Part shown: positions 2,145 through 17,139 of the stretch, piece by piece
How positions within the stretch are numbered: the first letter of the stretch is position 1
Layout of the letters: each line of letters starts with the position of its first letter
Origin: Cytophagales bacterium
GTDB lineage: Bacteria; Bacteroidota; Bacteroidia; Cytophagales; Thermoflexibacteraceae
Assembly (NCBI GenBank): GCA_947457925.1
Contig: CANGYA010000003.1
Coordinates: forward strand, 1 to 57,880
DNA: 57,880 nt
Direction: 5' to 3'
Notes under the pieces: generated by a model
Databases searched by the model: none
The model's input: the letters and a program-made list of their open reading frames with translations, nothing else
What the model was told of the DNA's origin: nothing
Translations under genes and position numbers: made by a program

Positions 2145-3494
2145 ATGTTAGAAAACCATTTGTATCTCACTCCTCGCCAAATTGTTGCCGAATTAGACAA
2201 ATATATTATCGGACAACATGAAGCCAAACGCAATGTAGCCATAGCCCTCCGCAACCGTTGGCGGAGAATGAATGCAAAGGCAGATATGCGGAGTGAAATT
2301 GTACCGAATAATATCTTGATGATAGGTTCTACGGGGGTTGGTAAAACCGAAATAGCTCGCCGTTTAGCCAAAATAGCAGATGCTCCGTTTGTCAAAGTAG
2401 AAGCCTCTAAATTCACAGAGGTAGGCTATGTAGGGCGTGATGTGGAGAGTATGGTGAGAGATTTGGTGGAACAGTCTGTGAGTTTGGTGAAAACTCAACA
2501 AAAAGAAAAAGTAAAAGCCAAAGCTATGGAAGTGGTCGAAGATGTAATCTTGGACGCACTCATTCCACCTATTCAAGACGACAACAACCCCGATGCCCGC
2601 CTCAACGAAGCCACCAGAGAAAGATTTAGAGAAAAACTACGGAATGGCGAATTGGAGGAAAGAAAAATAGAAATTCATGTAGAACATGACGCAGGTTCAA
2701 ATGTAGGTGTAATTGGTGGCTCTGTTGATGAAATTTCTATGATGAATATTCAAGAAATGATTAGTAACATGGTGCCTCGCAAATCTAAAAAACGCAAGTT
2801 GCCTATAGCCGAAGCCCGCAAAATTTTGTTGGAAGAAGAAGCTGCCAAACTAATAGACATGGACGAGGTGAAGGCGATGGCTATTCAGAAGGCACAAGAT
2901 TCAGGCATTATTTTTATTGACGAAATAGACAAAATAGCCTCGTCTAACCGCAGTGGAGGAGGTCCCGATGTGAGCCGTGAAGGGGTGCAAAGAGATTTAT
3001 TGCCGATTGTAGAGGGCAGTGCTGTCAATACAAAATATGGTGTGATTCATACAGACCACATACTTTTTATTGCAGCAGGAGCTTTTCATATTTCTAAACC
3101 TTCGGATTTGATACCAGAGTTTCAAGGTCGTTTCCCTATTCGGGTAGAACTGAACAGTTTGACACAAGACGACTTTTACCATATCCTAAAAGCTCCAAAA
3201 AATGCCTTGACCAAACAATACCAAGCATTATTGGCTTCGGAGGGCGTAGAACTAACTTTTCAAGATGAGGCTTTGTCCGAAATTGCGAGTATTGCCTTCC
3301 AAATCAATAGTGAAATAGAAAATATTGGAGCAAGAAGGCTACATACTGTCATGAGTCATTTGCTCAACGAGTTTTTGTTTGATGTACCCGACCTGATTCC
3401 TGTAAACTCTAAGTTAGTTGTAAATGCCGAAATGGTGCAAAGCAAATTGGCAGGCTTGCTGAATAATAGAGATTTGAGCCAGTATATTTTGTAA
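2145..3494 (+). CDS. hslU: HslU, ATPase subunit of the HslUV (ClpYQ) protease
   Basis: HslU is the AAA+ unfoldase ring that feeds substrates into the HslV peptidase in the cytoplasm. The 449 residues match the family length. The N-terminus LTPRQIVAELDKYIIGQ is characteristic. Walker A (GSTGVGKTE) is at 61-69, the pore loop GYVG near 93, and Walker B (IIFIDEIDKI) near 254-263. The C-terminus ends in LSQYIL, close to the HslV-docking tail of the family. The ATG at 2145 is the only start that keeps the N-domain, and no Shine-Dalgarno precedes it. hslV is not adjacent and not in the window, so the usual hslVU pairing is broken here. A strong hairpin follows the stop. Confidence 0.97.
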   Translation: MLENHLYLTPRQIVAELDKYIIGQHEAKRNVAIALRNRWRRMNAKADMRSEIVPNNILMIGSTGVGKTEIARRLAKIADAPFVKVEASKFTEVGYVGRDVESMVRDLVEQSVSLVKTQQKEKVKAKAMEVVEDVILDALIPPIQDDNNPDARLNEATRERFREKLRNGELEERKIEIHVEHDAGSNVGVIGGSVDEISMMNIQEMISNMVPRKSKKRKLPIAEARKILLEEEAAKLIDMDEVKAMAIQKAQDSGIIFIDEIDKIASSNRSGGGPDVSREGVQRDLLPIVEGSAVNTKYGVIHTDHILFIAAGAFHISKPSDLIPEFQGRFPIRVELNSLTQDDFYHILKAPKNALTKQYQALLASEGVELTFQDEALSEIASIAFQINSEIENIGARRLHTVMSHLLNEFLFDVPDLIPVNSKLVVNAEMVQSKLAGLLNNRDLSQYIL

Positions 3495-3508
3495 AAAAGT
3501 AGCTGTGA

Positions 3509-3546
3509 TTTACACTTTCCAAATTTGAAGATTTGGAAAGTGTAAA
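3509..3546 (+). terminator. 16-bp perfect hairpin after hslU
   Basis: Perfect arms at 3509-3524 and 3531-3546 enclose a 6-nt loop. The core ACTTTCCAAAT recurs in the hairpin at 26214-26250, so this may be a repeated hairpin that also acts as terminator. There is no long T-run. Confidence 0.6.
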
Positions 3547-16561: not shown

Positions 16562-16614
16562 AAAAAAACCGAAAGTGGCGGTTGCTCTAACCTTGCAACC
16601 GCCTGTCGTTTCGG
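16562..16614 (-). terminator. Strong intrinsic terminator of the RNA locus
   Basis: Read on the minus strand, an outer 6-bp stem (CCGAAA with TTTCGG), a small internal loop and a 9-bp GC-rich inner stem (GGCGGTTGC with GCAACCGCC) are followed by seven T. The outer stem uses 16609-16614, which are also the 3' acceptor strand of the tRNA-Gly-like structure, so the two folds exclude each other. Confidence 0.85.
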
Positions 16615-16679
16615 CAGGATTCGAACCTGCTAATAGCGAAGTGGCAGTTCGCCGTGTTTTCCAGATTCACCACGAAAAC
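16606..16679 (-). tRNA. tRNA-Gly(GCC)-like cloverleaf with a defective acceptor stem
   Basis: A 74-nt cloverleaf can be drawn. The D-arm is GTG/CAC with G18G19 in the loop. The anticodon arm is GCGAA-CTGCCAC-TTCGC, giving anticodon GCC at 16643-16645 with T33 and A37. A 5-nt variable loop follows, then T-arm GCAGG-TTCGAAT-CCTGC. The acceptor pairs for only five of seven positions (GTTTTCG against CGAAACG), with mismatches at positions 1-2; a further CTGT/ACAG helix continues outside. No CCA is encoded. It may be a degenerate tRNA or a tRNA mimic belonging to the larger RNA. Confidence 0.45.
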
Positions 16680-16727
16680 AGTTTTTCGCATAATTTATGC
16701 AATTTCTTTGCTACTAAATAAAATGCC

Positions 16728-16758
16728 ATCTTTGCTCTGCCAACTGAGCTACAAACCC
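16728..16758 (-). tRNA. tRNA-like 5' half (acceptor 5' strand, D-arm, start of anticodon stem)
   Basis: From 16758 on the minus strand: acceptor GGGTTTG, then TA, then a canonical D-arm GCTC-AGTTGGCA-GAGC, A26 and the stem AAGAT. It has no 3' half downstream, and the downstream T-arm at 16614-16630 does not match its acceptor. Its complement lies upstream at 16925-16958. Confidence 0.6.
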
Positions 16759-16793
16759 CTATTGTTTTTGTACTAATGAATTTCCTTACTAAG

Positions 16794-16876
16794 TTCTGTA
16801 GCATAGACTTTAGTCTGTGTTGGTAATATCTTGCTAATCAAGTATTTATTCACAGACTAAAGTCTATGCTACAGAA
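16794..16876. repeat. Hairpin repeat family TGTAGCATAGACTTTAGTC, copy in the RNA linker
   Basis: Perfect 26-bp arms (16794-16819 and 16851-16876) enclose a 31-nt loop. Related copies are at 42089-42166 and 36546-36615, with similar loops. Here it lies within the linker between the two tRNA-like halves and makes up half of it. Confidence 0.8.
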
Positions 16877-16924
16877 TTTAATAAGCTCTACATTCGTAAT
16901 TATTTTAAAATAATTATGAATTAG

Positions 16925-16958
16925 TGGGCTTGAGTGGATTCGAACCACTGCGTAAGAT
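16925..16958 (-). tRNA. tRNA-like 3' half (anticodon-stem 3' strand, T-arm, acceptor 3' strand)
   Basis: Read on the minus strand: ATCTT, ACGC, T-arm AGTGG-TTCGAAT-CCACT, acceptor CAAGCCC and discriminator A at 16925. The run before it (ATGTAG then TTACGC before the T-arm) resembles the 3' part of tmRNA. No matching 5' half exists in the 200 nt upstream on this strand; the match lies downstream at 16728-16758. Confidence 0.6.
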
Positions 16959-17131
16959 TTTGCATAGCAAAGCACTACATAAACTTGTGTTAGGCTAAGA
17001 CTGGGAACGAAAGGCTAAGACTATTTGGTAGTTAGCATTGCTGTCACGGCAACCTAAAAACCTGTCTATCTCAAAATGGCGATAGACATTTCATAAGACT
17101 TCGACTAAAACTAAGGCTATGTTCCTAATAA

Positions 17132-17139
17132 CAAATATA
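17132..17139 (-). promoter_or_regulatory. -7 promoter box for the RNA locus (TATATTTG on minus)
   Basis: An exact TAnnTTTG match on the minus strand would place the start of transcription near 17125, just ahead of the structured RNA. I see no convincing -33 TTG; a MITE copy begins 25 bp upstream. Confidence 0.45.

Follow-up and report, generated by a model that had tools for sequence, protein, structure and literature searches.

A candidate DUF7873-linked RNA that combines a permuted tRNA-like module with a second tRNA-like

Introduction

Bacterial Y RNAs are the closest known permuted tRNA mimics. They are documented as a circular permutation of tRNA in PMC11472068; the YrlA type (PDB 6CU1) has its tRNA-like module in permuted order. 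Here we describe an RNA gene on the minus strand of a 57,880-nucleotide stretch of DNA (Cytophagales bacterium, GenBank assembly GCA_947457925.1, contig CANGYA010000003.1, positions 1–57,880; hereafter the window), in which a tRNA T-arm/acceptor 3′ half likewise stands before its matching acceptor/D-arm 5′ half. Where a tRNA would have its anticodon stem, the YrlA module is joined to a longer helix. For the RNA described here, the candidate partner gene is DUF7873 instead of TROVE, and a second tRNA-like, a codon–anticodon contact and a terminal GGN loop come in addition to the permuted module.

In T-boxes, PMC7583486 describes a specifier that reads the anticodon of a tRNA, with the purine that follows stacking rather than pairing with U33, and a discriminator that reads the NCCA end. 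Our locus would resemble this arrangement in that a triplet reads an anticodon by Watson–Crick pairs with a purine behind it and a second element reads a 3′ NCCA end, but here the tRNA partners lie in cis, in the same transcript, and the two contacts fall on two different tRNA-likes. The intergenic region internal ribosome entry site of dicistroviruses is similar in holding an intramolecular mimic of a codon–anticodon pair; here, by contrast, the folds are full tRNA-likes, the setting is bacterial and no attached coding region is seen.

Circularly permuted tRNA genes of algae and archaea also have the 3′ half upstream of the 5′ half, but they become ordinary tRNAs, whereas here the broken end carries a codon-like triplet in a long helix. 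In two-piece permuted transfer-messenger RNA (tmRNA), the 3′ half again comes first and an acceptor helix and a long helix join the halves; our locus differs in its canonical D-arm, the lack of a tag or stop constraint, and the presence of ssrA elsewhere in the genome.

Predicted fold of the permuted module

All features of the gene lie on the minus strand. The acceptor helix pairs GGGTTTG (16752–16758) with CAAGCCC (16926–16932) over 7 bp, one T–G among them, and the 3′ strand is followed by the discriminator A (16925) and C74 (16924). The T-arm, AGTGG TTCGAAT CCACT, occupies 16933–16949, and the D-arm, GCTC AGTTGGCA GAGC, 16734–16749. An anticodon-type stem of 5 bp is formed by AAGAT (16728–16732) and ATCTT (16954–16958), an 8-bp long helix by TAGCAAAG (16706–16713) and CTTTGCTA (16965–16972), and the outer part of the long helix by 16692–16703 and 16974–16985, 12 bp with wobbles. 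A first-pass annotation made from the letters of the window had described these halves, their reversed order and the helices as we find them in the sequence and in an unguided fold, counting 8 bp in the outer helix. The joined halves have no ordinary 7-nt anticodon loop, as the broken end runs on into the long helix. By eye, both halves resemble tRNA-Phe of the same genome, which has two ordinary genes for it.

The unguided minimum-free-energy (MFE) fold of the minus strand from 16681 to 17000 forms the 7-bp acceptor, the T-arm, the D-arm, the 5-bp anticodon-type stem and the 8-bp and 12-bp helices. The shorter 301-nt stretch 16700–17000 folds with z = −7.4 relative to shuffles, but this score alone proves little: a palindromic repeat within the spacer accounts for much of it, and the anticodon-type stem is lost from the MFE structure of the shorter stretch. 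The spacer between the halves (16759–16923) contains approximately 100 nt that a repeat search finds at approximately 41 other places in the genome (86 matches in total, most places matched on both strands), a repeat nature that the first-pass annotation had missed. The length of this spacer is thus no feature of the gene itself; spacers measure 19–51 nt in 38 of 41 units. The repeat itself, at 16785–16890, is palindromic and resembles a miniature inverted-repeat transposable element or a repetitive extragenic palindrome; the spacer of a unit in a genome of the same genus also has an inverted repeat of similar core (locus L154, ~698–800).

Homologous units and covariation

To find homologues, 390 genomes of the order were searched with a covariance model in permuted order (R1), built on the window unit alone after shortening of its spacer. 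At E ≤ 0.1 it matched 146 of these, most of the listed matches being only the junction of ordinary tandem tRNAs, and units were verified by eye in 17 R1-picked genomes, the window genome included. A second model (R2), run at full sensitivity over 15 genomes of one family (f14), gave further units; a pattern scan of named genomes gave one in Aureispira, and DUF7873 loci three more. Tandem tRNA junctions are the false-positive class for both models. We dropped matches over intact tandem tRNAs and those covering model positions 41–113 only, except L178 in genome G125, where a full unit is visible; from one listing of 40 matches, those in L173, L191, L196 (two), L197, L198, L199, L204 and L205 were dropped as unverifiable, and two in L203 duplicate L175. 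In total 44 units were used, 41 of them where tests needed scripted rows, and units beside divergent DUF7873 paralogues (L311–L314) were kept apart.

The homologous units lie on contigs titled Cytophagales, Microscilla, Microscillaceae, Bernardetia and Flexibacter, and some genomes have two or three units spaced ~450–530 nt apart. They share a 5′ domain, the permuted module, a second tRNA-like and a terminator hairpin. When the same-genus genome was compared with the window locus for synteny, a SpoU methylase gene alone matched strongly; the unit of that genome adjoins DUF7873. Searches with R2 across the phylum and across the class (395 genomes each, with stricter filters and E ≤ 1e-7) led to 35 loci that were examined and held no additional true unit, a weak absence because the window unit, with its long spacer, was also missed. 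The DNA of one unit (L160) had no match in a phage collection.

The proof of the permuted pairing is comparative, because the acceptor halves pair across 41 homologous units at fixed positions: 7/7 in 40 units and 6/7 in the remaining one, with 27 distinct acceptors. Halves swapped between units pair at a mean of 4.6 of 7 positions, reaching 7/7 in 6% and at least 6 in 26%, and a search for the 5′ acceptor strand gave the same result as the fixed positions. In an alignment of 29 units fitted to the structure model, 90.6% of cells are paired, compared with 42–48% when partners are slid by 1–3 columns, and 37 of 44 pairs have changed on both sides. The T-arm is paired in 100% of cells, the 8-bp long helix in 89.5%, its outer part in 85.6% (12 of 12 pairs changed on both sides) and the anticodon-type stem in 81.4%, the last drawn pair of which is broken in 24 of 28 sequences. 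The first-pass proposal of a tRNA-like gene in two permuted halves is borne out by both tests, which show the compensatory changes in relatives that it had advised looking for. It had named relatives without conserved pairing, or unrelated decayed tRNA pieces, as grounds for giving it up; the relatives pair as described and the 44 units keep their halves together through compensatory changes.

A codon-like triplet matches the anticodon of the second tRNA-like

Behind the permuted 5′ half and before the terminator hairpin lies a complete but divergent tRNA-like (16605–16680), which the first-pass annotation had overlooked. ARAGORN reads it as tRNA-Gly(GCC) with the anticodon at 16643–16645, the Rfam tRNA model scores it at 44 bits, and it differs from the ordinary tRNA-Gly(GCC) of the genome. 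It is the only tRNA that ARAGORN and Rfam see in the window. Directly behind the 5′ strand of the anticodon-type stem, approximately where an anticodon loop would start, the permuted module has a triplet whose reverse complement is found as the anticodon of the tRNA-like that follows. In the window this is GGC (16725–16727), followed by A, facing the anticodon GCC.

This correspondence is found throughout the units. A lenient test, which allowed the triplet anywhere within a 12-nt stretch and three readings of 8-nt loops, succeeds in 43 of 44 units; with near-identical units collapsed, it succeeds in 31 of 32 versus 6.8 ± 2.2 after shuffling (maximum 16 in 20,000), the triplet standing at the same offset in 18 of the 31. 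A strict test, limited to 7-nt loops and six start positions, gives 35 of 36 units, or 28 of 29 collapsed versus a shuffled mean of 5.2 and maximum of 14. Thirteen kinds of anticodon occur among the 7-nt loops, 12 of them with G or C at position 34. T precedes the triplet in 22 of 31 collapsed units and A follows it in 21 of 31, as though to lengthen the pairing as far as A37 and U33. Hand reading was used for three anticodon loops, one cut by a contig end (L266) and two in units whose second module is itself permuted (L277 and L281).

In these last two units (genomes G056 and G107), the permuted second tRNA-like is of the Leu (TAA) type and the DUF7873 protein is a paralogue at ~40% identity. 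Anticodon loops of 8 nt occur in the second tRNA-likes of one unit each in L168, L169, L170, L175, L178 and L194 and of two in L174; their sequences are ATTTCCAG, ATGCAGGG in L194 and CTCGTAGA in one L174 unit. Such 8-nt loops are reminiscent of frameshift suppressors.

The terminal loop follows the discriminator of the permuted module

The second tRNA-like is followed by a hairpin, GGCGGTTGC-AAGGTTAGA-GCAACCGCC in the window (16577–16603), whose loop reads AGGNNAG in 34 of 41 units. In 40 of 43 units, the N of its GGN and the permuted module's discriminator form a Watson–Crick match (A–T, T–A and G–C); in the window, GGT (16590–16592) faces the discriminator A. The three exceptions are L163, where the script chose another hairpin and the loop AGGTGAG would fit, and L277 and L281, which have T·G. 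After collapsing, the match holds in 21 of 23 units versus a shuffled mean of 11.7 (maximum 19 in 20,000), whereas the discriminator of the second tRNA-like does not follow GGN (24 of 43 units; 9 of 23 collapsed).

GGN could pair with N73–C74–C75 of the permuted module. In the Cytophagales genes, C74 is encoded in all 41 modules and CC in only 10 of 41, so that such a contact would suggest a matured, CCA-added 3′ end. Of the 12 phage and actinobacterial modules described below, 8 have an encoded CCA behind the discriminator. Judged from their sequences, the 3′ ends of the permuted modules look like tRNA-gene ends.

Association with DUF7873 and occurrence in phages

DUF7873 (PF25283), a family of unknown function, is present in 31 of the 390 genomes of the order and in 17 of the 17 R1-picked genomes, the window genome included (Fisher p = 1.2e-21, uncorrected for phylogeny). 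Adding the later units of family f14 makes this 21 of 22, the exception being a genome that is 79% complete (G169); genomes whose unit was found through DUF7873 were left out of the count. In 11 of 30 loci of the order, a match to the RNA model lies directly downstream of DUF7873. A Foldseek comparison of its AlphaFold model (mean pLDDT 80.5) with the PDB gave no match at E ≤ 0.001, and PDB sequences searched with a profile gave none at E ≤ 1.

Outside the phylum, 73 phage records and 4 actinobacterial replicons have DUF7873 by tblastn. Nine of these records were inspected, seven phages and two Streptomyces plasmids, and R2 matches lie downstream of DUF7873 in eight (best E 8e-13 to ~2e-5); the Microcoleus phage record has no R2 match. 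Pairing was checked in these modules because R2 also responds to tandem tRNAs: with a script that sought the best-pairing 5′ strand of at least 6 pairs, 12 of 12 acceptors pair 7/7. Two modules follow one another in the Klebsiella, Gordonia, Arthrobacter and Streptomyces records, although the first of the Gordonia pair was located by eye only, and some phage copies of the unit sit in tRNA clusters. From its sequence, Vibrio phage D497 may have the codon–anticodon contact.

Elsewhere in the window genome, a tRNA-like at C238:565–635 (L064) resembles the second module of a divergent unit in L312; it may mark one more unit of the type linked to divergent DUF7873, a paralogue of which lies at C16:21769–22533.

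Remaining parts of the unit

The 5′ domain is closed by a helix, P1, whose 5′ strand GGAAC (17121–17125) was found by eye in the window, where the P1 script missed it, and whose 3′ strand GTTCC (17004–17008) lies within a motif conserved among homologues, TTAGCCTTTCGTTCCCAGTCTTAGCCTAA. P1 is fully paired (5/5) in 32 of the 37 units, of 41, in which both motifs were found, versus 7.7% when strands were swapped between units. RNAalifold predicted no pairs in the 5′ domain, probably because MAFFT misregisters P1, and strand swapping was used instead. Within the domain, GTCTATC and GATAGAC (17064–17087) form a hairpin by sequence reading and in the MFE fold.

Just upstream of P1 stands the box TATATTTG (17132–17139), which fits the Bacteroidota-type promoter consensus TAnnTTTG; within the corresponding 130-nt upstream stretch, TAnnTTTG occurs in 15 of 41 units, compared with 10% of random stretches. 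The unit ends in a terminator, the hairpin being followed by a run of seven T (16562–16568), and box, hairpin and T run are all present as first annotated. The next downstream open reading frame of at least 60 amino acids on the same strand has 90 and no Pfam family.

Other odd tRNA-likes were seen in these genomes. Two genes of ~120 nt in the window genome (C47:6088–6206 and C115:11919–12037; L060 and L059) share GTCAAAYAAGATTTACTTCTATGCCT in place of an ordinary anticodon arm, and genome G001 has identical odd tRNA-Cys-like genes on two small contigs (C52:17621–17695 and C49:16414–16488; L152 and L153).

A proposed clamp of two tRNA-likes

Comparison of the units shows a P1-closed 5′ domain, a predicted long helix that continues the permuted anticodon-type stem, and the triplet–anticodon and GGN–discriminator matches. 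We think it probable that its product is a structured RNA of ~560 nt belonging to a DUF7873-linked family, in which two tRNA-likes form a clamp. The transcript would fold so that the permuted module holds the second tRNA-like by codon–anticodon pairing, with its own 3′ end (N73–C74–C75) docked in the terminal loop. The permuted acceptor ends are probably cut by tRNA-processing enzymes and given CCA, the pieces remaining held together by the helices, and DUF7873 probably binds the RNA.

As far as our searches show, this is an apparently new class of large structured RNA. With Rfam 15, nothing but tRNAs was found in eleven loci with such units, in keeping with the suggestion of novelty in the first-pass annotation, and among the papers listed in literature searches that covered few subscription papers, none appeared to describe such an RNA and none mentioned DUF7873.

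Several observations weigh against the clamp. The structure model also joins the halves by a weak helix of 3 bp, paired in 72.5% of cells, which overlaps the codon triplet and is incompatible with the contact. One unit with an 8-nt loop (L174_1501) has no codon–anticodon match, the triplet of L172 is further off (offset 10), and the units beside divergent DUF7873 paralogues (L311–L314) have no such contact by eye. The contact is established for Cytophagales and Aureispira; beyond these, Rhizobium phage Y1_11 lacks a match by eye. In 7 of 8 phage and actinobacterial loci, the last permuted module has a discriminator that suits the terminal GGN, Rhizobium phage TM30 failing, but the last module was chosen after the loops had been seen, and the first would fail in three loci. 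In the Klebsiella phage, the second module is ambiguous, its 3′ half being overlapped by an ARAGORN call of an ordinary tRNA with anticodon TTA. In the window genome, which comprises 329 contigs, DUF7873 lies on contigs C59 and C16 and the RNA on C3. Finally, the transcript, its processing and its binding by DUF7873 are predictions from sequence comparison, and any role as a decoy or sensor is argued from analogy.

Alternative explanations

A first alternative is a T-box-like switch, in which the charging or integrity of the tRNA-like 3′ end would be measured and the terminal hairpin changed, controlling read-through or DUF7873 activity. The triplet resembles a specifier codon in the A that follows it and in the preference of the matched anticodons for G or C at position 34, and the N73-dependent GGN loop in the terminator hairpin recalls NCCA pairing in the T-box antiterminator, as set out in PMC7583486. 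However, the RNA ends with the hairpin, downstream of which no regulated gene was identified, and the loop contact uses the permuted module whereas the codon contact uses the other tRNA-like. In the window, the only locus checked in this respect, the unit is not the leader of an aminoacyl-tRNA synthetase or amino-acid gene, as its terminator is followed by the 90-residue reading frame. Rfam T-box models gave no match at the gathering score in the window or in 11 loci with units. We regard such a switch as unlikely.

The idea of permuted tmRNA, raised in the first-pass annotation, survives in the order of the halves and the long helix and fails as an identification of the gene. A relative of two-piece tmRNA would have a very short reading frame and bring its own tRNA for the first codon, in line with the permuted order, the long helix below the acceptor domain and the triplet matched by a tRNA-like of the same transcript; the third codon is TAA or TGA in 15 of 31 collapsed units. 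The corresponding positions, codon +6 to +8, are however TNA in 24 of 31 (TAA 8, TTA 7, TGA 7, TCA 2), which is not specific to stops. The window genome has a normal one-piece ssrA, found in the genome-wide search that had been advised, the D-arm is canonical and, as first noted, no tag is visible, the triplet after the anticodon-type stem not starting one. Covariance-model searches returned only tRNA at the Rfam gathering score; the one tmRNA model listed at E ≤ 10, cyano_tmRNA, reaches 13.1 bits against a cut-off of 70. A tmRNA relative is accordingly highly improbable. A tmRNA with a minimal tag was considered when a stop two codons past the triplet seemed frequent by eye in the first 30 units, and was rejected when more units turned the pattern into TNA.

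That the RNA is a bacterial Y RNA of the YrlA type, binding Ro60/TROVE through its circularly permuted tRNA-like module, is a highly improbable reading. The permuted module is the same, and the window genome has a TROVE gene (C228:1692–2417) directly beside an array of RNAs with permuted halves. Yet the array motif GTCGT..TACTTCG, with 3 exact matches in the array locus, has none in the window, where other Y-RNA motifs were sought only through Rfam; TROVE lies on contig C228 and the RNA on C3; the RNA tracks DUF7873, not TROVE; and the TROVE-adjacent array showed no second tRNA-like, no codon contact and no terminal GGN loop. On motif and context we rejected the Y RNA assignment for the window RNA.

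The array itself (C228:400–1400; L065), with its motif and permuted tRNA halves adjoining the Ro60/TROVE gene, likely consists of Bacteroidota Y RNAs of the YrlA kind. The same motif with tRNA halves occurs in L208, L210, L221, L233, L278, L283 and L284, and eight IMG/VR stretches match a pattern related to it. One IMG/VR contig (L258, ~3443–3513, minus strand) has a phage array, GGGCCGAAG..GGTTATC..CTTGCCC with permuted tRNA halves, whose units we take to resemble Y RNAs from the likeness of the motif.

Debris of a tandem tRNA duplication, in which the first copy keeps its 3′ half, the second its 5′ half and the outer halves are lost, can be set aside: identical tandem tRNAs do mimic the permuted core and give full-length model matches, and both halves recall tRNA-Phe by eye, but 44 units keep their halves paired with many compensatory changes and have a conserved 5′ domain, second tRNA-like and terminal loop, and the downstream tRNA-likes of ARAGORN start behind the 5′ half, not over the halves.

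Discussion

We favour a DUF7873-linked clamp of two tRNA-likes, and can offer two thoughts on what it might do. The anticodon and the 3′ end are common points of attack on tRNA. Because the proposed contacts cover both, some phage copies sit in tRNA clusters and anticodons differ between units, one conceivable though rather doubtful use, by analogy, would be as a tRNA-mimicking ribonucleoprotein (RNP) that acts as a decoy or a sensor when the anticodons and 3′ ends of tRNAs are damaged, for example in phage–host conflict. A second thought, less likely than not to be right, is a self-contained RNA version of T-box reading: one transcript would form two tRNA-likes, one permuted and probably cut into CCA-tailed pieces, and would check one by its anticodon and the other by its 3′ end. 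Together with DUF7873 it might sense, or be a decoy for, the damage or charging of tRNA, and would be shared across several phyla by bacteria and phages.

PF25283, a family without known function, gains a likely RNA partner, and phage tRNA clusters become places to look for such RNAs. The locus makes testable a bacterial tRNA-like assembled from two pieces in permuted order, and the use of codon–anticodon pairing outside the ribosome and T-boxes to build an RNP.

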